A DNA stretch of 17,915 bases from NCBI GenBank assembly GCA_903904765.1, contig CAIVEA010000282.1:1-17915 (forward strand), read 5' to 3'. Of this stretch, positions 1-15,751 are shown one piece after another. Every line of letters begins with the position of its first letter. Within the stretch, counting starts at the first letter, position 1. The notes below the pieces were generated by a model, which was not told the origin of the DNA, made no database searches, and saw only the letters and a list, made by a program, of their open reading frames with translations. Both the position numbers and the translations under genes were made by a program. This stretch comes from an uncultured Chloroflexota bacterium. Its GTDB lineage: Bacteria; Chloroflexota; Anaerolineae; Aggregatilineales; Phototrophicaceae.

Positions 1-233
1 CGGCTCTTGCGGCGGGCGGCATTGCGAGGGTGAATAGTACCCCGGCTGGCGGCCATATCCAGATCACGGACTGCGGTGCGCGTGGCTTCCTGCGCCGCCT
101 CGACGCTCTTGCCATGCAAAGTGGTACGCGCCTTCTTCACCAGCGTGCGAACGCGGGTGCGGAAAATGCGGTTGTGAACGCGGCGCTTTTCGCTCTGACG
201 ATGGCGCTTGAGCGCGGATTTATGATTTGCCAT
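1..233 (-). CDS. rpsT: 30S ribosomal protein S20 (3' end cut by window edge)
   Basis: Structural protein of the small ribosomal subunit that binds 16S rRNA. Read on the minus strand from the ATG at 233, the 77 visible codons give a very basic protein beginning MANHKSALKRHRQSEKRR and ending in the typical S20 tail RGTIHPRNAARRKS. Bacterial S20 is usually about 85-90 residues, so roughly ten C-terminal residues lie outside the window. A GGAGG Shine-Dalgarno sequence sits seven bases upstream of the ATG and fixes the start. The TPR gene lies 103 bp upstream on the same strand. Identification rests on the conserved N-terminal block (MANxKSAxKRxRxxEKRRxxN), which is seen directly. Confidence 0.96.
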   Translation of the reverse strand, partial: MANHKSALKRHRQSEKRRVHNRIFRTRVRTLVKKARTTLHGKSVEAAQEATRTAVRDLDMAASRGTIHPRNAARRKS

Positions 234-296
234 TCCTGCCTCCAGCAAAACGAACAGGTATCGTTTATTGATTTTCTCGATCAAATAGACCGACAG

Positions 297-2090: not shown

Positions 2091-2888
2091 ATGGGAAAGG
2101 ATGAACGCTTGGAACGGGTGATGGATGGGGATTTACAGTATTACCGTTTTTCGTTGTGGCCGCAGTTGAAGCATGGCGTTTTCACACGCAAGGGTGGTTT
2201 CAGCCCTGCGCCGTGGGCCTCGTTGAATCTGGGCGGGAATGTGGGCGACAGCCCGGAAGCAGTGCGCCACAATCACGAGGCCATGTATCACGCGCTCAAT
2301 GTGCGTGGTGATCGCGCCTGTACTGTGTGGCAGGTGCATAGCGCCGATGTGATGATCGCACTGGGACCAGTTCCCGGACGGCGCTGGAGTACGCTGGCGG
2401 ACAGCATGATTACTGATCTGCCGGATACGCCGCTGGTGATGCGTTTTGCGGATTGCACGCCGCTGCTCTTTCACGACCCCGTGCGCGGTGTGATCGGCAT
2501 GGCACATGCCGGTTGGCGCGGGACAGTGCAGGGCGTGGGTGCGAAAACTGTGCTGGCTATGACCGATGCCTATGGTAGCCAACCAGCGGATATTCAAGCG
2601 GCGATTGGCCCCAGCATCGGCCCGGAACGCTATCAGGTGGGTGAGGAAGTGGTGGAAGCTGTGCAGTCCTATTTCGGCACGACGGACGGGTTAATCCGGC
2701 GCGATCCGCAGGACGGGACAGCTTATTTGAACCTGTGGGCGGCAAATCGGCTGGATTTGGAACGCGCTGGCGTGGAACAGATCGAGGTGGCGGGCATTTG
2801 CACCGCCGAACATACCGACGAATTTTTCTCGCATCGAGCCGAGAAGGGGCGCACCGGGCGCTTCGGGGCGGTGTTATCGCTATCATGA
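2091..2888 (+). CDS. pgeF: Peptidoglycan editing factor / multicopper-laccase-domain protein (PgeF, YfiH family)
   Basis: A 265-residue protein of the DUF152/YfiH family. Characterised members act as peptidoglycan editing factor, removing wrongly incorporated L-Ser from UDP-MurNAc precursors; some homologues show purine nucleoside or polyphenol oxidase activity in vitro. All three metal-ligand/active-site motifs are present: His83 in WQVHS, Cys122 in FADCTPLLF and His139 in AHAGWRG. The C-terminal FFSHRAEKGRTGRFGA block is also typical. Length is normal. The ATG at 2091 has no clear Shine-Dalgarno sequence; Met11 is an alternative start, and residues before about 14 are not conserved in the family. 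Its stop codon overlaps the ATG of yggS (ATGA), suggesting translational coupling. Confidence 0.93.
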   Translation: MGKDERLERVMDGDLQYYRFSLWPQLKHGVFTRKGGFSPAPWASLNLGGNVGDSPEAVRHNHEAMYHALNVRGDRACTVWQVHSADVMIALGPVPGRRWSTLADSMITDLPDTPLVMRFADCTPLLFHDPVRGVIGMAHAGWRGTVQGVGAKTVLAMTDAYGSQPADIQAAIGPSIGPERYQVGEEVVEAVQSYFGTTDGLIRRDPQDGTAYLNLWAANRLDLERAGVEQIEVAGICTAEHTDEFFSHRAEKGRTGRFGAVLSLS

Positions 2889-3616
2889 ATACACATATCG
2901 CGGACAATCTGAATCGGGTGCGGCAGACGATAGTAGATGCCTGTGCTAGGGTAGGGCGCGACCCCGCCAGCGTAACACTGGTGGCGGTTAGCAAAACACA
3001 TCCTGCCAGCGATGTGCTGGAAGCATTCGCCGCTGGGGCGCAACATTTTGGCGAAAACCGCGTAGAAGAAGCTGAATCGAAGATTCCAGCGGTCAATGCG
3101 GCGGTGACGCAGCCTCCGGTGTGGCACATGATTGGTCATGTGCAGAGCCGGAAGGCCAAAGAGGTTGTGCCGCTGTTTCAGGTGGTGCATTCGGTGGATA
3201 CGCCCAAGCTGGCGCAGAAGTTTTCGGCACTGGCGGTAGAACGCGGCCTGCGACTGGATGTGTTGCTGGAAGTGAATGTGTCTGGCGAGGAGGCCAAACA
3301 AGGGTTTGAAGCCTCCGGTTGGGAGCGTGATGCGGCGGTGCGGCAGCGCATTGTGTCAGACGTGTTGCCGTTGTTCGCTTTGCCCGGCCTGCACATTCGC
3401 GGGTTGATGACGATGGCTCCCATCGTGGAGCAAATGGAACGGGCGCGTCCGGTCTTTGCGGCGCTGGCTGGCTTGCGGGCGCTGCTGGCGGCAGAATCGG
3501 GCCAGCCATTGCCTGACCTGAGCATGGGTATGACGGACGATTATCCGGTAGCGATTGAGGAAGGTGCGACCCTCGTGCGGGTGGGACGCGCTATCTTTGG
3601 CGAACGCCAGAGTTGA
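2885..3616 (+). CDS. yggS: YggS/PROSC family pyridoxal phosphate-binding homeostasis protein
   Basis: A 243-residue PLP-binding protein of the alanine-racemase-like TIM-barrel fold. The family buffers PLP and affects amino-acid and vitamin B6 homeostasis; no catalytic reaction is firmly established. Lys37 in VAVSKTH is the expected PLP lysine. Other family motifs are HFGENRVEE (54-62), HMIGHVQSRK (81-90), RGLMTMAP, and the C-terminal LSMGMTDDYPVAIEEG and VRVGRAIFG phosphate-binding segments. The open frame extends upstream into pgeF, but ATG 2885 overlapping the pgeF stop gives the standard N-terminus and normal length. In E. coli the neighbours are also yggT and yggU; in many Gram-positives yggS lies between pgeF and sepF/yggT. 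Confidence 0.95.
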   Translation: MNTHIADNLNRVRQTIVDACARVGRDPASVTLVAVSKTHPASDVLEAFAAGAQHFGENRVEEAESKIPAVNAAVTQPPVWHMIGHVQSRKAKEVVPLFQVVHSVDTPKLAQKFSALAVERGLRLDVLLEVNVSGEEAKQGFEASGWERDAAVRQRIVSDVLPLFALPGLHIRGLMTMAPIVEQMERARPVFAALAGLRALLAAESGQPLPDLSMGMTDDYPVAIEEGATLVRVGRAIFGERQS

Positions 3617-3625
3617 ATTTCTAGT

Positions 3626-3631
3626 GAGGAG
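3626..3631 (+). promoter_or_regulatory. Ribosome binding site that sets the yggT start
   Basis: GAGGAG directly abuts the ATG at 3632 but is six bases before the ATG at 3638. The normal spacing therefore favours 3638 (MLLQIIFF...) over 3632 (MDMLLQ...). Confidence 0.6.
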
Positions 3632-3637
3632 ATGGAT

Positions 3638-3901
3638 ATGCTGCTTCAGATCATTTTTTTCATCCTGAATGTGTACGAATTGCTCCTGCTGGGGCGGGTA
3701 TTGCTCAGTTGGTTTCCGAACATTGACTATCGCAATCCGTTGGTGCAATTCCTGTATGAAGTCACCGAGCCAGTGCTGCGGCCTGTGCGCCAGTGGTTGG
3801 GTGGGATGGGCATGTCCGGCATGATGGATTTCAGCCCGGTGGTTGTATTTCTGGTCATCCGCGTGCTGATGATTATCCTGCCCACTTTTCTGCGGTATTA
3901 A
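3638..3901 (+). CDS. yggT: YggT family integral membrane protein
   Basis: A small 87-residue inner-membrane protein. Two hydrophobic segments are visible: residues 1-20 (LLQIIFFILNVYELLLLGRV) and about 65-86 (FSPVVVFLVIRVLMIILP). Between them lies the family signature LSWFPNIDYRNPLVQFLYEVTEPVLRPVR, a WFP...NP...TEP.LRP.R pattern. Family members are linked by genome context, and some experiments, to cell division, chloroplast nucleoid/photosystem biogenesis, or osmotic response; the molecular function is unsettled. It follows yggS by 21 bp on the same strand. The alternative start at 3632 would add Met-Asp. Confidence 0.92.
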   Translation: MLLQIIFFILNVYELLLLGRVLLSWFPNIDYRNPLVQFLYEVTEPVLRPVRQWLGGMGMSGMMDFSPVVVFLVIRVLMIILPTFLRY

Positions 3902-4024
3902 GTCAGTCTTGTAGCGTTCAGCGCATTTTCGCTGTACAGTAAGTATTGTAAGGTCGGCGCTCTTATGACTCATCTGCGTAATTTGGGATGATAATAAGAG
4001 TACGAGTCGAAAGGGTACACTACA
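3902..4024 (+). other. Gap between yggT and yggU; no firm element
   Basis: This 123-bp stretch is the longest gene-free region in the window. It contains a five-base-pair inverted repeat, CAGCG-CATTTT-CGCTG, just after yggT but without a T-run, so it is not a convincing terminator. GATAAT occurs about 30 bp before the yggU start and could be a -10 box, yet no -35 hexamer is well placed. AAAGGG ahead of the yggU ATG is a weak ribosome binding site. The gap may carry a secondary promoter for yggU and the lipoprotein. Confidence 0.3.
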
Positions 4025-4354
4025 ATGACTGATCGCAAATTCGAGATTACCGATGCACGCGGCGGCGTTGCTTTAGCGGTGCGTGTGGTCACACGTTCGG
4101 CGGAGACTGAACTGGTTGGCGCTCAGGTCGAAGGCGATCTGAAAGTGCTGAAAGTGCGTTTGAAGGCTTCTCCGGCTGGCGATCCCGCTGCCAATCAGGA
4201 ATTGATCGGTTTGCTGGCCTCGTTGCTGAGTGTGCCGGAAAACAAGATCGAAATCGTTGCTGGCGCGGGTGGACGCGAAAAAGTCGTCACCGTTGAAGGC
4301 GTTTCCAGTGCCGATGTAGAAGCGAAATTGGGTGGCGTGAAGGCGGACGAGTAA
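4025..4354 (+). CDS. yggU: DUF167 (YggU family) protein
   Basis: A 109-residue cytoplasmic protein of the DUF167 family, function unknown. The family core is seen in VRVVTRSAETELVG near the N-terminus, then VLKVRLKASPAGDPAANQEL, the LLASLLSVPENKIEIVAGAGGREKVV segment (about residues 62-88) with the typical G-x-R-x-K ending. About 15 extra C-terminal residues (SSADVEAKLGGVKADE) exceed the usual domain. Its position after yggS and yggT matches the E. coli order yggS-yggT-yggU. It is separated from yggT by 123 bp, so co-transcription is likely but not certain. Confidence 0.88.
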   Translation: MTDRKFEITDARGGVALAVRVVTRSAETELVGAQVEGDLKVLKVRLKASPAGDPAANQELIGLLASLLSVPENKIEIVAGAGGREKVVTVEGVSSADVEAKLGGVKADE

Positions 4355-4396
4355 GCCGCTGCGCCCTGCAAAAACTGTTGATATACAGGCTCATTC

Positions 4397-4963
4397 ATGT
4401 CGTCGGGGAATGGGGTTAACGGGTTATCTATGGTAATCGGGCGTGGTGTTCTGGTTCTGGTTGCGGCGTTGCTACTGGCGGCCTGCTCATCCGGTGGGAT
4501 TGCTGCGCCTGAACCCACGCAAACTTTGATTCCGCCGACGGAAACCCCTATCCCGCAAGTTATTCTTCCAACTGCCACACCCGAAGCCACACTGCCGCGT
4601 CCCGGCGATATTGCCGTTGCCTCTCCGCAGGCCGCCGCTTCGGACATCGTCACCGACAGCGTTTCGCTGGAAACCGATCCCGTAGCTGCCGAATTGGTGG
4701 CATTGGCACGGCGGCGCATCGCGCAGGAACTCAATCTACCGTCACAACGGGTGCAGTTGGTGGAAATTCAAGCGGTGCGCTGGCCGGATTCCAGCCTCGG
4801 TTGCCCTGCTGCCGATCAAACTTACGCGCAGGGTGAGGTGGATGGCTACCGCATCGTGCTGTCGGCGGGAGATCGTCCGTATTATTTCCACACCGATTTT
4901 GACCGCGCACTCCCATGTGATGCCGTCCGCGAAGTGCTGCCCAAAGCCACCGAACAGCCCTAA
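4397..4963 (+). CDS. Secreted lipoprotein of unknown function
   Basis: A lipoprotein precursor of up to 188 residues. A hydrophobic signal peptide (VLVLVAALLLAAC) ends in the lipobox LAAC with the lipidated cysteine at residue 30. It is followed by a Pro/Thr-rich linker (PTQTLIPPTETPIPQ and more), a common spacer in Chloroflexota surface proteins. From about residue 95 comes a compact domain (VALARRRIAQELNLPSQRVQ, RWPDSSLGCPAADQTYAQG, YRIVLSAGDRPYYFHTD, LPCD) containing two cysteines that could form a disulfide. I do not recognise a named family with certainty. Two starts are possible, ATG 4397 and ATG 4430 (Met12); both keep the signal peptide and neither has a strong ribosome binding site. 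It converges with the sugar phosphotransferase gene, and the two stop codons overlap. Confidence 0.82.
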   Translation: MSSGNGVNGLSMVIGRGVLVLVAALLLAACSSGGIAAPEPTQTLIPPTETPIPQVILPTATPEATLPRPGDIAVASPQAAASDIVTDSVSLETDPVAAELVALARRRIAQELNLPSQRVQLVEIQAVRWPDSSLGCPAADQTYAQGEVDGYRIVLSAGDRPYYFHTDFDRALPCDAVREVLPKATEQP

Positions 4964-6378
4964 ACCCCACTCATCTTCAGCACCTTGCCCACTGTCCGCA
5001 CGAGGATGTTCACATCCAGCGTCAGCGATTGATGACGGATATAGAACAGGTCGTATTGCAGCTTGATGAGCGCATCTTCGTCCGTTGAGCCGTAGTTGAA
5101 GCGCACCTGCGCCCATCCGGTCAGCCCGGGACGGATGACCAACCGCGTGCGGTAGAACGGGATGCGCTCGGTCAACCGCTTGACGTGTTCGGGACGTTCC
5201 GGGCGTGGCCCGATCAGGCTCATATCCCCGCGCAGGATGTTGTAAATCTGCGGTATTTCGTCCAGTCGCATCCGGCGCATCCAGCGTCCGACGCGGGTCA
5301 CACGCGAATCACCGGGGCGGCTGAATACTGCACCCGTTTGTTGCTCGGCATCGTTCCGCATCGAGCGAAATTTGTAGATGCGGAAGATATGCCCGTTCAG
5401 GCCAATGCGCTCCTGTGAGTAGAATATGCTACCCGGCGAGTCCAGCCGGATGAGCAGCGCGAGGGGGGGCAGCAGCAGCAGGAACACCACCATGCCGATC
5501 AACGACAGCACCACATCCAGCAGGCGCTTGACCAAGCGGTACGGGCTGAACAACGATGCGCCGTCCATCGGCAGCACTACCGTCCAGTTGTTGCCGATGT
5601 GATCTACCGGAACTTGCCCGGTGATGCGCTCGTAAAGCAGCGTCATCGGCACGATGGACACGCCATTCTCGTAAGCGTCCATCACACCCTGAAAGGTTGC
5701 GCCGCTGAGTTCGTGGGTGGATGTGACGATCACCTCGCTGATGCGTTCAGCTTTTACCACGCGCCGCACGTCTTCACCCTTGCCGACTATCGGAATATCG
5801 CACAGTTCGGTTAGCACATCATCCGGTTCTGCGATCACGCCGCGAATGTCGTAGACGTGATGCGCGTGGCGGCCAATCGCGCCGATGATGGTGATGGCCG
5901 CCCAGTCCGTGCCGATAATCAATACGCGACGCTTGCCCGCCCATCCCGTGAGTGCTGGATTGAGCAGGCGTGCGAGGCCGACCAGTGCAAATGAGGCGGC
6001 GGCATAGTACAGGATGAATAGGCGCGGCAGTTCGAGCGGGCGGGCGAGGAAGAAGGCCAGCACGTACAGCACCAGCATTTGCAGGTTAATCAACACGAGG
6101 CTCTGGAAGGTGGCGTTGCGACTGGCGGCGAGACGCAGTTCGTAGAAATCGTTCGCGCCGGCCAGTACCAGCCACAAACCGATGAGGATGAAGAACCAGT
6201 GGCTGCGCGGCCACACAAAGACCACGTCGAACGGTTCGCGGGCGACTGTCGCCCATACCGCGAGGGCGACCAGTACCGCCAGCGCCACTGCCAGCACATC
6301 GCCTGCCATCAGCAGCAGGCGGCGCTCCGAGATGCGAAGCTGGGGGGCGTGGTGTTCGGGGGAGGGTTTGAAGATCAT
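4960..6378 (-). CDS. Polyprenyl-phosphate sugar-1-phosphate transferase (WcaJ/WbaP-like), initiates surface glycan synthesis
   Basis: A 472-residue integral membrane enzyme expected to move a sugar-1-phosphate from a UDP-sugar to undecaprenyl phosphate, the first step of exopolysaccharide or O-antigen assembly. N-terminal residues 21-140 hold about four membrane helices; 151-270 form a CoA-binding-like Rossmann domain (RVLIIGTDWAA); 281-472 are the bacterial sugar transferase domain. Its motifs are RLLDVVLSLIG, the YKFRSMRNDAE segment (335-345), RLDEIPQIYNIL with the Asp-Glu pair at 373-374, SLIGPRPERPE and RPGLTGWAQV. Start ATG 6378 overlaps the stop of the upstream YfhO-like gene (ATGA); a longer frame to 6471 would intrude 97 bp into that gene and adds unconserved residues. 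The sugar transferred cannot be read from the sequence. Confidence 0.94.
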   Translation of the reverse strand: MIFKPSPEHHAPQLRISERRLLLMAGDVLAVALAVLVALAVWATVAREPFDVVFVWPRSHWFFILIGLWLVLAGANDFYELRLAASRNATFQSLVLINLQMLVLYVLAFFLARPLELPRLFILYYAAASFALVGLARLLNPALTGWAGKRRVLIIGTDWAAITIIGAIGRHAHHVYDIRGVIAEPDDVLTELCDIPIVGKGEDVRRVVKAERISEVIVTSTHELSGATFQGVMDAYENGVSIVPMTLLYERITGQVPVDHIGNNWTVVLPMDGASLFSPYRLVKRLLDVVLSLIGMVVFLLLLPPLALLIRLDSPGSIFYSQERIGLNGHIFRIYKFRSMRNDAEQQTGAVFSRPGDSRVTRVGRWMRRMRLDEIPQIYNILRGDMSLIGPRPERPEHVKRLTERIPFYRTRLVIRPGLTGWAQVRFNYGSTDEDALIKLQYDLFYIRHQSLTLDVNILVRTVGKVLKMSGV

Positions 6379-8636
6379 GATGAAAGGTGATCGGGATTTC
6401 GTGAACGAAACAACACCAGCAAAATCAGACCGGAAATGACCGAGATCACGATTCCGGGCAGCGGCCACCACGGGCGATAATCGAAGCGAATGGTTTGTGC
6501 GCCCGCTTGCACCGCCACCGCTCGGAACGCGCCGTTGGCTCGTTCGATGGTCGCAGGTTCACCGTCTTTGCTGGCGACCCAACCGGGGTAAAAAGTGTCC
6601 GCCAGCACCAACCAACCGTCGGCAGGCGCGTTCACGTCCACCCGTGTATGGTTCGGCGCATCGTTTACAGTGGCGGGGACGGCGGCGGATTCGATGGGCG
6701 GCGGGCAGTCGCCTGTGCCACGCAGAAACACCTGCCGTTCAGGATTCCAGTTTGCATCGAGCAGGGCGGCATCCAGTGCAGGCTGGTCAGCCACCCAGCA
6801 GGCGCTGGCGACCCACCATGCCCGCAAAGGCGTTTGTTCCAGCGGTTGCACCACACCCGCCTCGTCATACACCCCGCCCGAACCCGCCGCGTGGAGTAGC
6901 AGCGCCTGTTGTTCGGGATGCGCTTCGATGCGCTGCACATAGTCCGCCATGCCGCCCACTTGCAGCGGGTCGAAGTTGTTCAGCACGGCGTAGCGGTCTA
7001 TCAGGTTGAGGTTGGCTAACCCGCTGGTACGGAAGGCTTCCGCCTGATTCTGCGCTTCAGGATAATCTTCAAACGGCATGTAGCGGTCAAAACTGATGCT
7101 GTTCTCAATCTCTTTAGGCCAATACGGGCGCGGTACGCTGGTTGCGGGTTCGCGGCGGGCATAGAAATCCGCGCTGACCGTCGGGTTCAGCCCGTAATTG
7201 GCAGCGATTAGGTCGCCACTGACGATCAGCAGCACTGCCATCTCCCATAGCGGATACCAGCGGCTTTCCGGCGTTTCCGGTTGGCGCAGCGTCAGGAATC
7301 CTGCCAGCGCCCCCAATATGCCTACCGAAATCACGGCGCGGGTGAGGACGGCGAAGCCTTCGGCCTGCGCCACTTCCGGCGGCAGCAAGCGTGAACCGAG
7401 CAGCGCCAGCACCACCGCGCCGATGCCCGCCGCTGTCGCCAGACGGGTTGCGAACAGCAGCCAGTGACCGCTCCCCCATGCGCTCATGCCGATTCCTGCT
7501 AGTACGCTCAACGCCAGCACGCTCCACAGATGCCAGCGAACGGGCGCTTGGAATAGGCTGAAGGTGGGCACATAGCGGTACAGGAACGGGAACACAGGCG
7601 AATGATCGCCCAGCGCGAACACATAGGCCACGATCAACACCAGCAACCAGAAGGGGACGGTGGCGAACAGCGCCGGACGCGCCTTGCGCCGCAGTTTGCC
7701 CCATGCCCATGTCAGGATGGCCGCCAGTGCCGCCATCAGCGGGATGAAGCCGATATATACCGCGTCCTCGAAGTACGCGCCTTTGGCGAGGTATGTGCCG
7801 TCGGCGGGTGTGCCGAACACATTGGGCGCGAGGAAGTTCAACGTGCGCGGTAGGCTGTAGCTGAAATTCATGGCGAAGGTGAAATCCACCCCGCCCGAAC
7901 GCTGCGATTGACTCAGGAGTTCGGCGGTGGGCAGCAGTTGTGCGGTGGCGATTCCGCCTCCTAATGCCAGTGCCCCCACGACCTGCGCCAGCCTTAACCG
8001 CTGAACCGGACGATGCGTGAGTACCCACCAGCCGCAAAAGGCAGCCGTGAGCAGCAGGCTATACCATGCTGATTGAGCATGTCCGGTCAGTAGCTGCAAT
8101 CCGGTGACGAGCGCCAACCAGCCGACATCCCGCCGCCGTCCTTGCGTGAGGATGCCAAGCGCCGCCCAAAGCATAGAGGGCAGCCACACGGCGGCAGTCA
8201 CGGTGGGGTAGCTGAAGGCGCGGGCGACCAGATACCCGGTCAGACCGAAGGATAGCGCGGCGAGGTTTTGCCCCGGCACGCTCATGCCCAGCCGCCCGCC
8301 CAGCGCCCACAGCCCCGCGCCGCCGATGAACAGATGCAGCACGACGGTTACGCTCATCCACCATGCCAACGGCAGGAACAGCCCCGGCCAGTGGAACGGG
8401 TATAGCAGCGCCGATTGATAGTTCGCCAGCAGGGGCGCGCCTGCGCCGTTGTAGCTGTTCCACAGGGGCAGTTGTCCGTTGCGAATCAGGTCAAAAGAGT
8501 ACTCGCGCCAAGGATAGAACTGCGTGGCGGGCAGCCCCCAGAACAGGCTTTCACCCAGCAGCAGCCGATGGAACAGGATGAGTAACGCCAGCGCCAGCAG
8601 CCATAAGCCCCATGCGCGGTGGACGGTTTTTACCAT
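6375..8636 (-). CDS. YfhO-family polytopic membrane protein
   Basis: A 753-residue protein with a dozen or so membrane helices. YfhO proteins are GT-C-like; studied members take part in glycosylation of cell-wall or lipid-linked polymers using polyprenyl-phosphate sugars. Visible markers are the periplasmic first-loop segment FYPWREYSFDL, then GQLPLWNSYNGAGAPLLANYQSALLYP (about 54-80), and the C-terminal soluble part LVLADTFYPGWVASKDGEPATIERANGAFR, a classic YfhO ending, followed by a last helix (GIVISVISGLILLVLF). The start at 8636 overlaps the upstream gene by 7 bp; the open frame continues to 8948, but that extension is Arg/Gly-rich shadow sequence. It is probably co-translated with its paralogue upstream and the sugar phosphotransferase downstream. 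Confidence 0.9.
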   Translation of the reverse strand: MVKTVHRAWGLWLLALALLILFHRLLLGESLFWGLPATQFYPWREYSFDLIRNGQLPLWNSYNGAGAPLLANYQSALLYPFHWPGLFLPLAWWMSVTVVLHLFIGGAGLWALGGRLGMSVPGQNLAALSFGLTGYLVARAFSYPTVTAAVWLPSMLWAALGILTQGRRRDVGWLALVTGLQLLTGHAQSAWYSLLLTAAFCGWWVLTHRPVQRLRLAQVVGALALGGGIATAQLLPTAELLSQSQRSGGVDFTFAMNFSYSLPRTLNFLAPNVFGTPADGTYLAKGAYFEDAVYIGFIPLMAALAAILTWAWGKLRRKARPALFATVPFWLLVLIVAYVFALGDHSPVFPFLYRYVPTFSLFQAPVRWHLWSVLALSVLAGIGMSAWGSGHWLLFATRLATAAGIGAVVLALLGSRLLPPEVAQAEGFAVLTRAVISVGILGALAGFLTLRQPETPESRWYPLWEMAVLLIVSGDLIAANYGLNPTVSADFYARREPATSVPRPYWPKEIENSISFDRYMPFEDYPEAQNQAEAFRTSGLANLNLIDRYAVLNNFDPLQVGGMADYVQRIEAHPEQQALLLHAAGSGGVYDEAGVVQPLEQTPLRAWWVASACWVADQPALDAALLDANWNPERQVFLRGTGDCPPPIESAAVPATVNDAPNHTRVDVNAPADGWLVLADTFYPGWVASKDGEPATIERANGAFRAVAVQAGAQTIRFDYRPWWPLPGIVISVISGLILLVLFRSRNPDHLSS

Positions 8637-10636
8637 AAGGACGGAATGCCTTTCGTGCCGGATGAACGATAACGCCGGATGCGCCCCACCGCGAGGAATA
8701 GTCCCGCCGCCACCCATGCTGCGCCGGAGAATCCGTTGGCGGCGAGGGTGAGCGCGTTCAGGTCGGCTACCTGTTCGGACGTGGGCAAGTCCGGCCAGCC
8801 TTCCAACCACGCGGGAATATCCTCGCTGTTCGCTGTGGAGGAGATGTAGTCCATATTGGCGTACACGAACACCTCCCCCACCTGACCGAGCGATTGTAGG
8901 CGCGGGTTGTTTATCGGGTAGCCGGCGATCACATGGCTCACGCGCCATTCAGCTAACACAGCCGTATTGATGACCGCGTTCCGGTTGGCCTCGCTGATGT
9001 CCTCGTCATTCGCCAGCCCCGCCAGCGAGGGCAGCACCGGCTCATAGCTGCGCGAAGGGACACCGCTTCCCGCTTCCACAGCCCGCACGATTCCGGTCAA
9101 CTGGAACGGGTCTACTCCGCCGAACAGGTGCAGATGATAAACCGCCGCTACCTGTTGATCGAGGCTGAATGAGGGCGAATAGATGCGATCTGCCTGTAGG
9201 CTCACCAGCCGTTCCGCCAGCGGACGTTGTACATCCAGCCAGTTGGCGGGGGATTTCCAGTGGACGAGGTGTACCCCTGTCCATAACAGATCGAGTGCGG
9301 TGAGCGCCAACAGCACCCGCGCCGCCATCGTTGCCGTCAGCCGCCCGCGCAGGACAGCCAGCAGCACCGTGCCGAGCAACACTCCGCCGCACAGGGCGCT
9401 CAAACTGATCGAGGTTGCTAGGGGCAGCGCGACCAGCGCGAATCCGCCGAGTAGGGCAATCAGCCCGCAGCACAGGATGACGACAAACACCTGCCGACTG
9501 CTGCCCATACGACCATCATGGGCGGCAGCGGCGCGGGTCATCAGGTGTTCTAGCCCTTGCGCCGCTAGCAGTGGCAGCAGCAGCGCCGCGATAATCCAGA
9601 TTCGTGCCGGAACGCGGAACCACAGCAGCGCCGGCATCAGGCGCGTGAGCAAAGGCCACAAGAAGGCGTTCGAGCCGAGCGCGTACAGGAACAGGAATAC
9701 GAACAGGCCACCCCACAGCCAGCGCAGGCGCGGCGTATAGGTGCGGATGCCGAGTAGTGCCAGCGCCAGCACGGGCAAGCCAGCGTAGAGTACGGTTTCT
9801 TTGCCGCCATGCCCCGGCAGGATGAAAGCCAGCAGCGCCAGCGGTTCGAGCATGGCTGCACTGGGGTCGTTGGCGGTGAGTGTGGTGCGGGAGAGGTACG
9901 GACTCCATGCCGCCAACGGGACGATCAGCGCGGCAGACAAGGCCAGCGCCCCGATTGCCGCTGGAACGAGCAGCCACATGCGCTGCCCTAGGACATCGTA
10001 CCGCGTTTCTATGAGCGCATAAACCCCCGCGCTGGCATAAGCAAACACCGCCACGCGCACATCAGCGGTGAACAGTAGCGCCGCTACCAGCGCCAGTTGC
10101 ACAATAGTGGTCAGCCTCTGTGGTTGGCGAAAGCAGCGCCGGACTAGCAGCATCAGCCACGGAAACCACGCCATCGCTGCCACAATATCCAGATGTCCCG
10201 CACCCAGATGCCCGAACAGGCGCGGCGACAGGCCATAGCTCAACGCAGCGAAAGTTGCCCCCGCTGGACTTAGTCCCATCGCCCGCGACCAGTACCCCAT
10301 CCCCAGAGTGGCGAGGGCGATGTGCAGCAGCAGCAAGCTATTCAGGTGTAGGGCAGGGGGGAGTAGTAGTGCCAGCCATTGCAGCGGGTAGGCCGTTTTA
10401 TTCAGCGGGTTAGCGGCGAATGGTTGCCCTGCCATGATCGTGTCCTGCCACAGCGGGAATTGTCCGCGCTCCAACACAGATTCGCGCAGATGTAGCGCCG
10501 CCGGCCAGTGCGAGAGCGCCACATCGGAATAGTCTGTTTCGGCGTTGGAGTAGGGGAGTCCATCCGGGCGAAAACCCGCCAGCAGCAGGACAGTCAGGAT
10601 GACTGCCCCCACGAAGGCACGGCTTTCAAGGCGCAT
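8630..10636 (-). CDS. YfhO-like polytopic membrane protein (paralogue of the next gene)
   Basis: A 668-residue membrane protein with many hydrophobic segments. After an N-terminal helix comes an extracytoplasmic loop with acidic residues (ETDYSDVALSHWP, Asp35 and Asp38), followed by RGQFPLWQDTIMAGQPFAANP and YPLQWLALLLPP. This matches the downstream YfhO protein residue for residue in its Gly-x-x-Pro-Leu-Trp, Gly-x-Pro, Ala-Asn and Tyr-Pro positions. Acidic residues in that loop are typical catalytic candidates in GT-C enzymes. The C-terminal third (about 440-620) is a soluble segment with YAVIAG-like content and a final helix (FSGAAWVAAGLFLAVG). The ATG at 10636 overlaps the upstream gene by 11 bp. 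A glycosyltransferase-type role is inferred from fold and operon context; donor and acceptor are unknown. Confidence 0.82.
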   Translation of the reverse strand: MRLESRAFVGAVILTVLLLAGFRPDGLPYSNAETDYSDVALSHWPAALHLRESVLERGQFPLWQDTIMAGQPFAANPLNKTAYPLQWLALLLPPALHLNSLLLLHIALATLGMGYWSRAMGLSPAGATFAALSYGLSPRLFGHLGAGHLDIVAAMAWFPWLMLLVRRCFRQPQRLTTIVQLALVAALLFTADVRVAVFAYASAGVYALIETRYDVLGQRMWLLVPAAIGALALSAALIVPLAAWSPYLSRTTLTANDPSAAMLEPLALLAFILPGHGGKETVLYAGLPVLALALLGIRTYTPRLRWLWGGLFVFLFLYALGSNAFLWPLLTRLMPALLWFRVPARIWIIAALLLPLLAAQGLEHLMTRAAAAHDGRMGSSRQVFVVILCCGLIALLGGFALVALPLATSISLSALCGGVLLGTVLLAVLRGRLTATMAARVLLALTALDLLWTGVHLVHWKSPANWLDVQRPLAERLVSLQADRIYSPSFSLDQQVAAVYHLHLFGGVDPFQLTGIVRAVEAGSGVPSRSYEPVLPSLAGLANDEDISEANRNAVINTAVLAEWRVSHVIAGYPINNPRLQSLGQVGEVFVYANMDYISSTANSEDIPAWLEGWPDLPTSEQVADLNALTLAANGFSGAAWVAAGLFLAVGRIRRYRSSGTKGIPSLW

Positions 10637-12221
10637 AGATAGTGACGCTGCCGAAGATTGCAGCCGGGGTGAGGGATTTCAGGCACACACTCTGTCCGAG
10701 TTTGGCTTCTTGCGGGCCCGCCACGATATAGTGGACATGGTATTCGTCCAGCAAGGCGCGGCACTGGCTGTTATTGGTTGCCGAATACCAGTCTAATACC
10801 TGCTGCTCTTTGGTTTTTGCGTCCAGTGTTTCGTAAGGATGCCCGTAGACCACTCGCGCCCCGACCCAACTGGGAATCCACACGCTCACATCTTCGGAGG
10901 CCAGAATCACATCCGGTGAATGTGTGTAGGCGCGTAACCATTGAAAGGCAGAGGCGTAATCTTGTTCGAGAAATGGCCCTTCGTTAATGGCGAAACTGCT
11001 CAAAAGCACCAGTATCGGGCTGAGGAGCAGCAGGGGCGCGGTCAGCACCATCAATAAATTATGCCAGCGTCGTGCGATGCGCGGATACCAGTAGTTGCTG
11101 AGGGCACGCACGGCGAAATACGTGACCGGAATCATAATGCCTACCCCGAAGCGGCGCTGGACGCTGGTGGGCAGGTACATGGCAATCACGATCAGCACCA
11201 GCCACAACAGCATGAAGCGATCACCGTCTTGCTCGAAGCGGCGCAGGGCGCGGACGATGGCTGGCAAGCCGATGAGCAGTGGTAGCCCAAGCCCGATCAG
11301 CAGTTCCGGCAGGGCCGGCGATAGCGTAAGGTTCTGGCGATTCCATTCCGCCACAGCCGGATTGTAATTCACTGCCGCCATGTAGTAGATCGCCAGCGGC
11401 GCGGCAGGCAGCACCAGCGCCATCAGCCAGTATAATTCGCGGATCGCGAGTCGCCGTGCTTTGAGGGAATAGAACAGCATGTACAACCCGATTGCGCCAC
11501 ATAGCGGGATCAGTGCGTGGGGGTACAGGATGGAGAGGAAGAAGCTAAAGACCACCACCAGTATCCCGCCGTTATCCAGTTGCGGGTTTTGCGTCATGCC
11601 GGGGCGCAGGATGGTGATGAATAGCGCCGCCAGTTGAATGATGCAGGTCAGCGCCAGCGGGAAATGCACGTTTACGAGGCTACTGTAAAACGGGAACATC
11701 TCCGGTATGGCGAGGTCTGGGACTGTGATGCTGCCGCTGAGGGGCGCATATAGCCAACCGAAACCGGAGGTGATGGCGGCGATGAGGAAGAAGATGCGCC
11801 GGGCGCGAACGCGGTGCGGGTAAATGCTAGCGGCAAGGTAGTAGAGCGAACTGTACATGAGCAGAGAGGCGATCACCCGCGCTACATGGTACACCGCGAC
11901 AACGGGCAGTTGCAGCACCCGCGCCAGATTGCCTAAGGCAGGATAGACTGCCGCGAGAAAGGCTGGAGTATGCGCTTCCGGCGTGTGCCAGAACTGGATG
12001 AGCCACGCGCCTTCCACGCCCTGCTGCATTTTGGCGAGGTAAGTTGCGCCATCGCGGTAGTTGGTCAGCACGCCCATGAATTGCCAGTTGGGGTGCGACG
12101 AGCCGCTAAAGGCGATCCATAAGAACGGCACAAACGCAAGGCCAACGAGCAATCCCGCCATCAACACCACCCACCGCCATTCGGCTGGACTGATGTGTAT
12201 GTTGTCGTTTGTACCTTGCAT
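10626..12221 (-). CDS. Polytopic membrane protein, probable GT-C type glycosyltransferase
   Basis: A 531-residue protein with about ten to eleven membrane helices. After the first helix (VVLMAGLLVGLAFVPFLWIAF) is an outward loop with NYRDGATYLAKMQQG, where the acidic Asp is placed like the catalytic residue of GT-C enzymes. Then come a conserved-looking HTPEAHTPAFLAAVYPALG segment and alternating helices. The last 110 residues (from about SAFQWLRAYTHSPDVILAS) form a soluble extracytoplasmic domain, as in many dolichyl- or polyprenyl-phosphate-sugar-dependent transferases. It is the first gene of the four-gene minus-strand operon; AAGGCGG lies five bases before the ATG. I cannot name a specific family, and a non-enzymatic role is possible. 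Confidence 0.8.
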   Translation of the reverse strand: MQGTNDNIHISPAEWRWVVLMAGLLVGLAFVPFLWIAFSGSSHPNWQFMGVLTNYRDGATYLAKMQQGVEGAWLIQFWHTPEAHTPAFLAAVYPALGNLARVLQLPVVAVYHVARVIASLLMYSSLYYLAASIYPHRVRARRIFFLIAAITSGFGWLYAPLSGSITVPDLAIPEMFPFYSSLVNVHFPLALTCIIQLAALFITILRPGMTQNPQLDNGGILVVVFSFFLSILYPHALIPLCGAIGLYMLFYSLKARRLAIRELYWLMALVLPAAPLAIYYMAAVNYNPAVAEWNRQNLTLSPALPELLIGLGLPLLIGLPAIVRALRRFEQDGDRFMLLWLVLIVIAMYLPTSVQRRFGVGIMIPVTYFAVRALSNYWYPRIARRWHNLLMVLTAPLLLLSPILVLLSSFAINEGPFLEQDYASAFQWLRAYTHSPDVILASEDVSVWIPSWVGARVVYGHPYETLDAKTKEQQVLDWYSATNNSQCRALLDEYHVHYIVAGPQEAKLGQSVCLKSLTPAAIFGSVTIYAP

Positions 12222-12278: not shown

Positions 12279-12298
12279 CAGCGTTGTGATCTATGCAA
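12271..12298 (-). promoter_or_regulatory. Candidate promoter for the surface-glycan operon
   Basis: On the minus strand TTGCAT (12298-12293) and TATACA (12276-12271) are separated by 16 bp, 50 bp before the ATG of the first glycan gene. The -10 overlaps the opposite promoter's -10 in the shared TGTATACT block, so the two operons may compete for RNA polymerase. Inferred from pattern. Confidence 0.38.
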
Positions 12299-12343
12299 TC
12301 TGTTTTTTCATTCTACACCGACTTGGGATACACGCCATTGACC

Positions 12344-13051
12344 ATGACACAAGCGGAGGCGCTTTACCGCCTTCAAGAGATTGATCTCCTTCTGGCACAA
12401 GCGCAAAAGCGACTGACCGACATTGATACGGCGCTGGCTGACCGGGGGGCAGTGACTGCTGCCGAAGCGGAAGTACAGGCCGCGCAAGCCCATTTGAAAC
12501 CGTTGCAAACCCGTTCCCGTAACCTCGAACTTGAAATCCAGTCGAATACCGCCAAGATGCGGCAGGCGGATGAAACGTTGTATGGCGGGCGCGTCCGCAA
12601 CCCCAAAGAACTGCAAGATTTGCAGCACGAAATCCAGTCGTTGAAGAAGCGCAATTCCGAACTGGAAGATGATCTACTGGAACTGATGGTACAGGTGGAA
12701 GCGGGTGAGGCGACGCTAACCGCACGGCAAGCCGCGCTCAAGGCAGCGCAGGTTGCGTGGGAGGCCGAACACGTTCACCTGCTGGATGAGCAGGCCACGC
12801 TCAAACAGGGATTGCCGGAGACGAGTAAGCGTCGGCAACAGGCGTTGCAGGATGTGAACGCCGATGGCCTGAAGTTGTACCAATCATTGAAACCACGCAA
12901 GCATAATCAACCTGTCGCACTGCTGGTGAACCAGAGTTGCTCGTTCTGCCGGGTGGAGCAGGATTTGGCGATCATCCGTGAGGTGCGTACCGGGCAAAAA
13001 CTGACCACCTGTTTAAGTTGCGGGCGCATCCTCGCCTACCGCAGCGGCTAA
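12344..13051 (+). CDS. Coiled-coil protein with C4 zinc ribbon (COG1579 / CdsZ-like)
   Basis: A 235-residue protein. Residues 1-185 are almost wholly helical, with heptad-like coiled coil broken by the family motif LYGGRVRNPKELQDLQHEI (79-97). The C-terminus has a zinc ribbon with Cys199-x2-Cys202 and Cys223-x2-Cys226. Family members are proposed to bind nucleic acid or to work with partner proteins (CdsZ in Chlamydia, others near RNase H and Nif3-like genes); the molecular role is not settled. The frame could start at ATG 12293, but family proteins begin close to the LYRLQEID segment, so 12344 is preferred; neither start has a strong ribosome binding site. It is followed after 15 bp by the NACHT-HEAT gene. 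Confidence 0.9.
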   Translation: MTQAEALYRLQEIDLLLAQAQKRLTDIDTALADRGAVTAAEAEVQAAQAHLKPLQTRSRNLELEIQSNTAKMRQADETLYGGRVRNPKELQDLQHEIQSLKKRNSELEDDLLELMVQVEAGEATLTARQAALKAAQVAWEAEHVHLLDEQATLKQGLPETSKRRQQALQDVNADGLKLYQSLKPRKHNQPVALLVNQSCSFCRVEQDLAIIREVRTGQKLTTCLSCGRILAYRSG

Positions 13052-13066
13052 ACATTTGGAGGGGTT

Positions 13067-15751
13067 ATGGGCTTCGATGTACAGAATTTTGGCATCGGTT
13101 TGCTGGCGGGGTGGGCATCGGCCTACGGGGTTTATCGCGCCCGTAATCGCATCCGGGGGTGGGCGCAGGCCGCCTCGAATCAGGCCAGCAGCGCCCAGAA
13201 CTATGCCACGCTGAGCAGTGACCGCCGCTATATCACTGAGATTATTCGTTATGCACAGGCCGGGCATTTGCTCGGCGCAACTGTCCCGTTGACGGAAGTG
13301 CTGGTGGAACCGCGTTTCCTACCTGCTGCCACGCTGGTCGCCCCGCCGGATGATGATGTGGTGCATCAGGTGTTCCACGTTATCCCCATACTGCCCGATC
13401 ATCCCTATTTGCAGGCGGCTTATCATCTGGAAACGCTCTCGATTGACGACCTGAGCAAGGGCGAAAAACGGCTGGCGATCATCGGCAGGCCGGGTAGCGG
13501 GCGCACGACGGCGCTGTTTGCTATTCTGCTGCGGGCGATGGGTGTGGCGAAGTTCGACAAGCCGCGTGATGCCGTGCAAGAACGGTTGGATGCCGAAGAA
13601 TCCGCCCTGAATGAGAAGCAGCGGGCAGTACGCATTCAAGAGCGCGTGATGATGGAAGAACGCGCCCGTGCCAAGTTCGCTGATGAGAACAGCGGCAAGG
13701 CGTTTGATTTGCAGAACGAAGCCAGCGCGGGAATCCCGCTGCTGAACCGGCTGATGCCCGTGTATGTTCATCTGGCGGATATTGACCCGCGTGATTCCGA
13801 GTTCGGCGGCGAAGTGGATGCCGCCGAGCCGCTGGTGCGGGCAGTGCAGCGGCAGATCGGGCGTGTGGCTGCCAGTTCTGTGCCGCGCAACCTGTACAAC
13901 CGCCTAAATCGCGGACAGGTGCTGCTGCTGGTGGATGGCTACGACGATTTACCGGAGAGCGAGCGCCCCCGTCAGGCGGCATGGCTTCAGACGTTGATGC
14001 GCGATTACCCTGACAATATGTACATTGTGGCTGCGCCTGCGGTGGGCTATGGCCTATTGACAGCGCGGTTGGGGTTGACCCCGTTGATTTTGCGCCCCTT
14101 TAACGACCATGATACAAACACTGCTGCTGTCAGATGGGCGGCTGCGTGGCCACGCACAGGTGGTAAACGTTCAGTCAAACCGCCCACGGAAGAACAGGTG
14201 CAAGTAGCACGCAACAACAACCGCACGTATTCCCCCTTCGATCTGACGCTCAAGATTCGTGCCACCTATGCGGCCGATGCGGAAGCCGCTGGCTACGAGG
14301 GCTGGATGCGTTCGTTGCTGGCGAAGTTCTTGCCACCGGAGATGCCGTTCGGCGTGGCGCTGACGCAACTGGCGCAAACCGCTGCGTTGCAACTGGACGA
14401 GGGCTATGTCACGCTGAAACGTTTGCAAGACATTCTGCATGATCCGGTGGTCGTGAACGCCCCTGCGGATGAGCCTTCGCTGGATGAAATCGCGTCTAAC
14501 GCATCCGACAAGAAGGATAAGAAAGATAAGAAGACCGCACCGAAAGAAGACACCAGTATGCAGGCCAAGTTCCTGAACGCGCTGGTGCGGGGCGGGTTGC
14601 TGGTGCGCTATGGTGGCGGACGGCATTTGTTCCGGCATCCGCATCTGGCGGCTTATCTGGCGAGTTTGACACTGAAAGACGCGCCGCCGGAGCAGGTGAC
14701 AGAGAAGGCGCTGCTTCCCGTGTGGAATGCAGCGTTAGGGTTTGCAGTTTTGCATCGCCCGATTGATGATGTGGCACGGGTGCGCTTGAATGCGCCCGCC
14801 GATGTGCTGCATCATCTGGTGCTGGAGATGGCCTACTGGCTGCCGTTCGCCCCGGCTGATGCGGCGTGGCGGCGCACTTATTTGAAGCAACTGGGCACGA
14901 TGCTGATCGCTCCGGCGCAGTACCCGTTGCTGCGTGAACGGACGGCGGCGGCGTTGGTGGCAACACGCGATAAAACCGCTGCGCTGGTGTTCCGTCAGGC
15001 GATTAAGAGCAGCACCCCGCATCTGCGGCGCTTGGCCTGCCTCGGTTTAGGTGCGATGGGCGAAACGACGGCTGTGCAGGAAATTGTCAGTCTGTTCGGG
15101 GACGAAGACCCGAATAATTCGCTGGCGGCGGCGCTGGCGCTGGGTGCGTTGGGTACGAATGAGGCGTTGGAGGCGCTGGCACAGGCTTTCGCCAGCGGTT
15201 CGGAAGATGTGCGGCAGGCTGCTGCCGAAACTTTCGCCAATATCCCCGACGAAGGCTATCCGGTGCTGTATGATGCGATTCAAGACGAGGAGATGATGCT
15301 GCGCCGCGCCGCTGTGTACGGGTTGCGGCGGGTGAAATCCCCTTGGGCGGTGGTCGCTATTTACCGCGCCTTCCTCGAAGATCAGCAGTGGTACGTGCGT
15401 TCCGCCGCGCAATTGGCCTTCGAGGAGTTGCAGTATGGTGGCGCACTGGTTGCTCGCAACCTGCCTGCGCCGGACGGCATCGGTTGGCTGAAGGATTGGG
15501 CGGCGCAGCGCGGCGAAAGCATCCCCCCCGGCGAGGGCGCGGTACAGATGCTCCTGAAGGCTCTTCAAGAAGGCGCAGACGAGGTTCGCGTGTATGCCGC
15601 CTCGAATCTCGGTCAGTTGGGGCTGGCTTCGACGGCGAAGGCGTTGTACGCGGCGCTTTATGATCGGCAACCGGAAGTGCGCGACGCGGCGCACCGTGCC
15701 TTAGCCGAGTTGCAGCAGCAGATCGGCAAACCGCTGCCCGCGCCGTTGTAG
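13067..15751 (+). CDS. Membrane-linked NACHT-like P-loop protein with C-terminal HEAT repeats
   Basis: An 894-residue STAND-type protein. Residues 8-24 (FGIGLLAGWASAYGVY) are a short hydrophobic segment, perhaps a membrane anchor. A P-loop follows at 140-147 (GRPGSGRT), and VLLLVDGYDDLPE at 285-297 resembles a NACHT Walker B. Both deviate from the usual form: Arg146 replaces the canonical Lys, and Asp294 stands where Glu is usual. The segment after it (MYIVAAPAVGYG, 318-329) lacks the expected Thr-Ser-Arg-like sensor. Between the motifs, about 164-206 is a highly charged, helix-prone insertion. After a winged-helix-like region and a Lys/Asp linker (481-489), residues 620-885 form HEAT repeats (HLRRLACLGLGAMG, DVRQAAAETFANI, MLRRAAVYGLRRV, EVRVYAASNLGQLG, EVRDAAHRALAEL). 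GGAGGGG precedes the ATG. Function is unknown; defence, signalling and scaffolding are all possible. Confidence 0.85.
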   Translation: MGFDVQNFGIGLLAGWASAYGVYRARNRIRGWAQAASNQASSAQNYATLSSDRRYITEIIRYAQAGHLLGATVPLTEVLVEPRFLPAATLVAPPDDDVVHQVFHVIPILPDHPYLQAAYHLETLSIDDLSKGEKRLAIIGRPGSGRTTALFAILLRAMGVAKFDKPRDAVQERLDAEESALNEKQRAVRIQERVMMEERARAKFADENSGKAFDLQNEASAGIPLLNRLMPVYVHLADIDPRDSEFGGEVDAAEPLVRAVQRQIGRVAASSVPRNLYNRLNRGQVLLLVDGYDDLPESERPRQAAWLQTLMRDYPDNMYIVAAPAVGYGLLTARLGLTPLILRPFNDHDTNTAAVRWAAAWPRTGGKRSVKPPTEEQVQVARNNNRTYSPFDLTLKIRATYAADAEAAGYEGWMRSLLAKFLPPEMPFGVALTQLAQTAALQLDEGYVTLKRLQDILHDPVVVNAPADEPSLDEIASNASDKKDKKDKKTAPKEDTSMQAKFLNALVRGGLLVRYGGGRHLFRHPHLAAYLASLTLKDAPPEQVTEKALLPVWNAALGFAVLHRPIDDVARVRLNAPADVLHHLVLEMAYWLPFAPADAAWRRTYLKQLGTMLIAPAQYPLLRERTAAALVATRDKTAALVFRQAIKSSTPHLRRLACLGLGAMGETTAVQEIVSLFGDEDPNNSLAAALALGALGTNEALEALAQAFASGSEDVRQAAAETFANIPDEGYPVLYDAIQDEEMMLRRAAVYGLRRVKSPWAVVAIYRAFLEDQQWYVRSAAQLAFEELQYGGALVARNLPAPDGIGWLKDWAAQRGESIPPGEGAVQMLLKALQEGADEVRVYAASNLGQLGLASTAKALYAALYDRQPEVRDAAHRALAELQQQIGKPLPAPL
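14507..14533 (+). repeat. Short in-frame repeat encoding a Lys/Asp linker
   Basis: A 27-base purine-rich stretch repeating GATAAGAA-like units encodes DKKDKKDKK (residues 481-489) within the NACHT-HEAT protein. It lies between the winged-helix-like region and the segment before the HEAT repeats, and probably forms a flexible charged linker. Such simple repeats can vary in length between strains. Confidence 0.6.

Follow-up and report, generated by a model that had tools for sequence, protein, structure and literature searches.

A NACHT-HEAT protein of Chloroflexota with an arginine at the Walker A lysine position

Changing the Walker A lysine of a nucleoside triphosphatase (NTPase) to arginine is a common laboratory manipulation that slows or blocks hydrolysis while keeping nucleotide binding, as in RAD51 K133R. 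More generally, Walker mutations lower activity drastically and a very similar residue may retain some of it, according to the available part of one review (PMC9599529). In NLRs, the HD1 proline contacts adenine, and the sensor-1 arginine is absent from NLRC4, NLRP4, NLRP9 and NLRP13 (PMC7583971, accessible portion). Bacterial NACHT proteins, for their part, act in phage defence (PMC12169576, available text). Here we describe a gene for a NACHT-HEAT protein in which arginine naturally occupies the Walker A position where almost every protein of this kind has the lysine that grips ATP. It lies in a 17,915-nucleotide contig (CAIVEA010000282.1, assembly GCA_903904765.1) of an uncultured Chloroflexota bacterium, and this whole stretch is called the window below. 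Is the arginine an accident of one sequence, the mark of a decaying nucleotide site, or a variant that these bacteria have kept?

Arginine at the Walker A position and its origins

An initial annotation, made from the letters of the window alone, had read the P-loop as GRPGSGRT with a CGC codon for Arg146, and this reading is correct. Residues 136–151 contain no lysine, which rules out a shift in the register of the P-loop. Of the 7,996 candidates scored in a protein search, 293 were homologues at E ≤ 1e-3, and the best 120, including the window protein, were aligned. Position 146 is arginine in 119 of these 120, the exception being P0069 with lysine. Adding 11 hits from a profile search brings the close homologues to 131, of which 130 have arginine. 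The annotation had named lysine at this position in close homologues as the sign of a strain-specific mutation or a sequencing error; such a lysine is present in one of the 131, nothing was found in favour of either explanation, and their probability is negligible. The lineage-specific variant that it also envisaged is borne out, the arginine being a fixed trait of these close homologues.

Several codons encode the residue, six across the 53 arginine genes found at genome loci and five across the 43 genes of the window's branch; drift has thus altered the codon but not the amino acid. The ratio of nonsynonymous to synonymous substitution rates (dN/dS) was 0.02–0.13 in all nine pairs tried, seven of them arginine pairs and two lysine pairs. 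The gene comparisons show, at the level of sequence, that arginine at position 146 is maintained by selection.

The wider family is mixed. Among the gene products of 85 genome loci, 53 have arginine, 31 lysine and one (L107) leucine. A search with L127 as the query returned 79 matches, of which 75 were new (46 Lys, 28 Arg and 1 Thr); the threonine row, P0206, is an unrelated HEAT protein and is excluded from later counts. The pooled family comprises 290 rows, 211 Arg, 78 Lys and 1 Leu, which are not all independent since some locus and protein rows represent one gene (L082 and P0066, for example). The leucine gene, at L107:4977-7742, reads GPPASGLTT in Walker A and DGYRE in Walker B, and its nucleotide site is possibly truly dead.

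A family member was found by profile search at E ≤ 1e-25 in 33 of 400 Chloroflexota genomes and in 112 of the 154 genomes of the order of genome G001. The five genomes in which all candidates were scored hold one full-gene copy each (in G003, as two pieces of a single open reading frame) besides HEAT-only and distant NACHT matches. In G548 there are gene matches at two separate places, the larger searches having scored few candidates per genome.

In the trees, two arginine lineages, L127+L129+P0132 and P0138+P0139, are nested within lysine clades; P0138 shares 67% identity with L121 and 64% with P0135, both of which have lysine. Approximately unbiased (AU) tests on a 44-row set rejected two groupings, one of all arginine rows (p 5e-114) and one joining L127+L129 to the window's branch (p 4e-6), each test comparing two quick trees under LG+G4 and the second group having been picked after a tree had been seen. 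Support in the trees is from the Shimodaira-Hasegawa-like approximate likelihood ratio test (SH-aLRT) only, and long branches such as L151 are unsurely placed. By the tree there were at least four or five exchanges between lysine and arginine, including one apparent reversion to lysine in P0069. Lysine is taken as ancestral because the lysine outgroup (L141-L150 and L153, chosen as root) and generic NACHT proteins carry it. The sequences show arginine throughout the close relatives of the window protein and, separately, in other branches of an otherwise lysine-bearing family.

The generic NACHT proteins were 30 Chloroflexota control loci: 121 genomes were searched, 38 had a match, and the best match was taken from each of 30 of these. 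Selection was by a match of E ≤ 1e-8 to the Pfam NACHT profile, a level that the window protein does not reach, so the control is biased towards lysine, and some control loci are near-identical to each other. A script resolved 25 of the 30, all with lysine; the other five each show a GKT or GKS loop, those of L164 and L183 perhaps not belonging to NACHT. No Walker A arginine was seen among the 30. In the 25 resolved loci Walker B always ends Asp-Glu, and the sensor segment has the Thr-Ser-Arg triplet by script in 13 and an arginine there by eye in 12.

The remainder of the nucleotide pocket

Two further departures had been noted in the same site, a Walker B-like DGYDD ending in aspartate and the lack of a Thr-Ser-Arg sensor, and the three changes had been taken together. 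Both observations hold, the sensor-1 stretch reading VAAP with no arginine; the idea that they form one event with Arg146 does not. None of the 290 family rows, the 78 with the P-loop lysine included, has arginine or lysine in the sensor-1 region (residues 320–325), so loss of the sensor-1 arginine is a family trait independent of Arg146. At Walker B, the 120 aligned homologues have D290 and G291 throughout and D293 in 119, with residue 294 being D in 89 and E in 31. The window protein follows the STAND pattern of hhhhD, a small residue next and a further acid downstream. Residue 294 varies within both groups, with D 137, E 67 and 7 others in the 211 arginine rows and E 56, D 21 and 1 other in the 78 lysine rows. 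Its association with Arg146 was not significant over independent pairs, and neither was a coupling of Arg146 with Thr147; five pairs were available in each case, a number that cannot reach 0.05. Of the three changes, only Arg146 is special.

Around the arginine, the pocket is strongly conserved. G143, S144, G145, R146, T147, T148, D290, G291 and D293 are among the most conserved 6–14% of columns in the 131 close homologues, P390 and H524 are within the top 22%, and the mean column entropy is 0.42 over residues 139–150 versus 1.43 for the whole protein. The HD1 proline is present in 48 of 53 arginine loci and 19 of 31 lysine loci, and the histidine at the FxH position of the winged-helix domain (WHD) is retained in 190 of 211 arginine and 72 of 78 lysine rows. 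Nucleotide binding is probably kept in the arginine-type pocket, as judged from its sequence, because a decaying pocket would hardly show such conservation. The degenerate NTPase that was among the original suggestions is for this reason disfavoured.

Architecture and locus

The features of the gene and its surroundings are collected in the table. The AlphaFold2 model (predicted local distance difference test, pLDDT, 88.3; predicted template modelling score, pTM, 0.88) has, in order, the N-terminal helix, the NACHT nucleotide-binding domain (NBD), HD1, winged helix, HD2 and a HEAT superhelix, the NBD-HD1-WHD-HD2 fold spanning about 400 residues. The proposed fusion to HEAT repeats is supported by a Pfam HEAT_2 match of E 3.2e-31 over four stretches. 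The same scan found no PYD, CARD or effector domain, and scored NACHT at 22.1 bits (E 1.5e-4), below the curated cut-off of 26.7. A precomputed PF05729 label is present on 11 of the 120 homologues that are the best of the 293. Among the lysine members scanned, L145 passes the cut-off (32.3) and L116 and L122 fail; both arginine members scanned, L127 and L137, fail. By fold and descent the window protein is NACHT-derived; by motif it is a variant rather than a canonical member, since the Walker A lysine and the sensor-1 arginine are absent and the Pfam cut-off is narrowly missed. Its charged helical insert is shared by the lysine members L116 and L122 and the arginine member L127, and is short or missing in L137, L145, L151, L152 and L153.

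Table. Features of the NACHT-HEAT gene and its upstream neighbour, in window positions
Feature	Residues	Positions	Strand	Basis or remark
Upstream gene: CT398-like coiled-coil hairpin with zinc-ribbon-like end		12293..13051	+	Pfam PF24481, 72.7 bits
GGAGGGG, putative ribosome-binding-like site, 2 bases 5' of ATG		13058..13064	+	Sequence
NACHT-HEAT protein (P0001)	894 aa	13067..15751	+	Open reading frame, homologues, AlphaFold2 model
N-terminal Gly/Ala/aromatic helix, weakly hydrophobic	5-26	13079..13144	+	pLDDT about 45-65
Walker A / P-loop GRPGSGRT	140-147	13484..13507	+
Arg codon CGC at Walker A Lys position	146	13502..13504	+
Charged helical insert between P-loop helix and next strand	169-208	13571..13690	+
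Walker B DGYDD (in LLLVDGYDD, 286-294)	290-294	13934..13948	+
Sensor-1 position AAP (in VAAP, 321-324)	322-324	14030..14038	+	Without Arg
Pro at HD1 proline position	390	14234..14236	+
Linker	465-497	14459..14557	+	Poorly conserved, low model confidence
His of FRH (F522-R-H524), at WHD FxH histidine position	524	14636..14638	+
Helical/HEAT-repeat region	600-886	14864..15724	+	Pfam and AlphaFold2 model

The N-terminal segment had been read as a short hydrophobic stretch suggesting membrane association. The segment exists, and its residues F8, G9, G11, G15, W16 and R26 never vary among the 131 close homologues. A mean Kyte-Doolittle hydropathy of 1.6 over 17 residues is the cut-off for a membrane helix. 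The best N-terminal mean is 0.89 in the window protein, and none of the 131 close homologues reaches the cut-off (median 0.89). With rows whose N-terminus is too short excluded, lysine members reach it in 44 of 45 proteins and 26 of 31 loci. For arginine members the counts are 14 of 27 proteins beyond the close homologues, and 11 of 47 loci. Membrane association is hence plausible for the lysine relatives and weakly supported for the window's clade. An N-terminal membrane anchor is likely ancestral, because the lysine relatives mostly reach the cut-off and the close relatives of the window protein never do; the near-invariant glycine-rich helix of the window's clade may be either a short anchor or a packing or output element.

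The upstream CT398-like gene ends 15 bases before the NACHT-HEAT start on the same strand, and its product scores 24.6 bits against the zinc ribbon PF02591, below the cut-off of 29.1. A zinc-ribbon gene is adjacent in 64 of the 85 loci (37 of 53 Arg, 26 of 31 Lys and 1 of 1 Leu). It is missing beside the other 21 (L079, L086-L090, L002, L092-L094, L096, L113, L114, L120, L124, L125, L127, L129-L131 and L151), and an obligate partnership with it is rejected. Of these 21 genomes, six have a zinc-ribbon match elsewhere, one of them weak, and 15 have none, these metagenome-assembled genomes being perhaps incomplete. In 50 of the 85 loci (42 Arg, 7 Lys and 1 Leu), the opposite strand downstream carries YggT or DUF167 genes. 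In the window, this block is instead upstream of the NACHT-HEAT gene, at 2091-4963, a position that the comparison of loci identifies as a local rearrangement. Beyond the Pfam matches, we take its genes to be a laccase-domain (YfiH-like), a YggS-like, a YggT-like and a DUF167-like gene and a small lipoprotein-like open reading frame.

Three tandem large membrane-protein-like reading frames occupy 6375-12221 on the minus strand, the first alone with a Pfam match (YfhO), and at many listed loci the NACHT-HEAT gene has a relative of the third beside it. A gene for ribosomal protein S20 (3-284, minus strand) is open at the window start. Judged by its gene content, the neighbourhood of the NACHT-HEAT gene looks housekeeping-like. 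At E ≤ 1, four PADLOC models matched, three on HEAT parts and one weakly (E 0.016) on the P-loop; none is named NLR or Avs. A defence island is unsupported by these matches and by the synteny of the loci.

Function of the arginine pocket and comparison with known systems

We give an even chance to the reading that the protein is an NLR-like STAND switch of Anaerolineae-type Chloroflexota, apparently of vertical descent, whose arginine pocket binds ADP or ATP and hydrolyses slowly. Arg146 would contact the beta and gamma phosphates in a pocket that still binds nucleotide, and His524 would close over ADP. Slow hydrolysis would then give a slow switch, or one held in the nucleotide-bound state. 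The HEAT array may sense or scaffold a partner, and the N-terminal helix may serve as anchor or output.

Several points weigh against this reading. The arginine form might hydrolyse well, given the activity described with very similar residues in the part of PMC9599529 available. Lysine and arginine members often occupy the same locus, which fits near-neutral interchange, and a close relative, P0069, carries lysine. No column in residues 60–639 tracked the arginine across its origins under a filter of at least 80% among close arginine homologues and at most 30% in lysine rows, a result that a near-neutral exchange would give as well. Residue 144 comes nearest, with serine in 209 of 211 arginine rows versus 22 of 78 lysine rows, yet it is serine in just one of L127, L129 and P0132, and its coupling to Arg146 was not significant in the independent-pairs test (5 pairs). 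The limits of the AU tests given above count here too, as does the weak case for a membrane anchor in the window's clade.

The same points lend themselves to an explanation that we regard as possible, if on the unlikely side, namely an ordinary slow STAND switch in which a positive charge suffices and arginine and lysine are interchangeable. The repeated exchanges with the apparent return in P0069, the lack of a compensating column, the zinc-ribbon neighbour and architecture common to both forms, and the retention of activity by very similar residues (PMC9599529, accessible text) all fit. Against it stand the arginine in 130 of 131 close homologues, encoded by five codons across the 43 genes of the branch, and the absence of arginine from the 25 resolved control loci, a control that leans towards lysine.

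It is unlikely, in our estimation, that the Walker A arginine stands in for the missing lysine and the missing sensor-1 arginine alike, holding and sensing the gamma phosphate in an active NTPase. If true, a functional substitute for the Walker A lysine would have evolved several times in a NACHT switch.

Quite improbable is a pseudo-NTPase that has lost nucleotide binding and keeps the NACHT domain only as a scaffold for the HEAT repeats. The replaced lysine, the absent sensor-1 arginine, the frequent aspartate for the Walker B glutamate and the sub-threshold NACHT score are in keeping with such a loss; the retained P-loop glycines, Ser/Thr147 and Asp290, the mostly retained WHD histidine and the low entropy of the P-loop segment are not. 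About as improbable to us is a bNACHT/Avs-like bacterial NLR that acts against phage and whose P-loop is unusual. A NACHT fold with a repeat region and the phage defence by bacterial NACHT proteins described in the available text of PMC12169576 point that way, whereas the recurring housekeeping-like locus, the low dN/dS and PADLOC matches limited to parts of the HEAT region and one weak match at the P-loop do not.

Our literature search, from whose coverage subscription journals were mostly absent, found no direct report of a natural Walker A arginine and nothing direct on NACHT/HEAT proteins in Chloroflexi; the available parts of PMC7159879 and PMC9599734 do not mention the NACHT-HEAT family. 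With the NACHT modules of animal NLRs (NLRP3, NLRC4 and NOD2) the window protein shares the NBD-HD1-WHD-HD2 fold, the HD1 proline and the WHD FxH. It differs from them in the arginine for the Walker A lysine, in HEAT repeats in place of leucine-rich repeats (LRR), and in a glycine-rich N-terminal helix where Pfam finds no PYD or CARD. The lysine members of its own family in Chloroflexota (for example L142, L145, L116 and L122) have the same order of parts, the zinc-ribbon gene upstream in 26 of 31 loci and no sensor-1 arginine, but they carry GxGK[ST] and, in most cases, a clear N-terminal membrane helix.

Family-wide replacement of the Walker A lysine is described for SAMD9, a family of STAND-like NTPases; there the change is to glycine, not arginine, and a mixture of lysine and non-lysine orthologues goes unmentioned in the part of the paper available (PMC5445408). 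The GMS subgroup of the IRG GTPases (Irgm) likewise has a fixed natural substitution of the P-loop lysine, by methionine, beside a lysine subgroup. According to the accessible portion of PMC1297648, those subgroups occur in one mouse genome, whereas the lysine and arginine relatives of the NACHT-HEAT family sit in different genomes. What seems new, as far as our literature search shows, is arginine in a NACHT module and its recurrent exchange with lysine within one gene family. A natural lysine-to-arginine change that is kept among close relatives, with lysine elsewhere in the family, amounts to a natural experiment on the role of the lysine, and matched pairs such as P0138 versus L121 or P0135 offer a way to probe that role in NLR-type switches and the need for hydrolysis.
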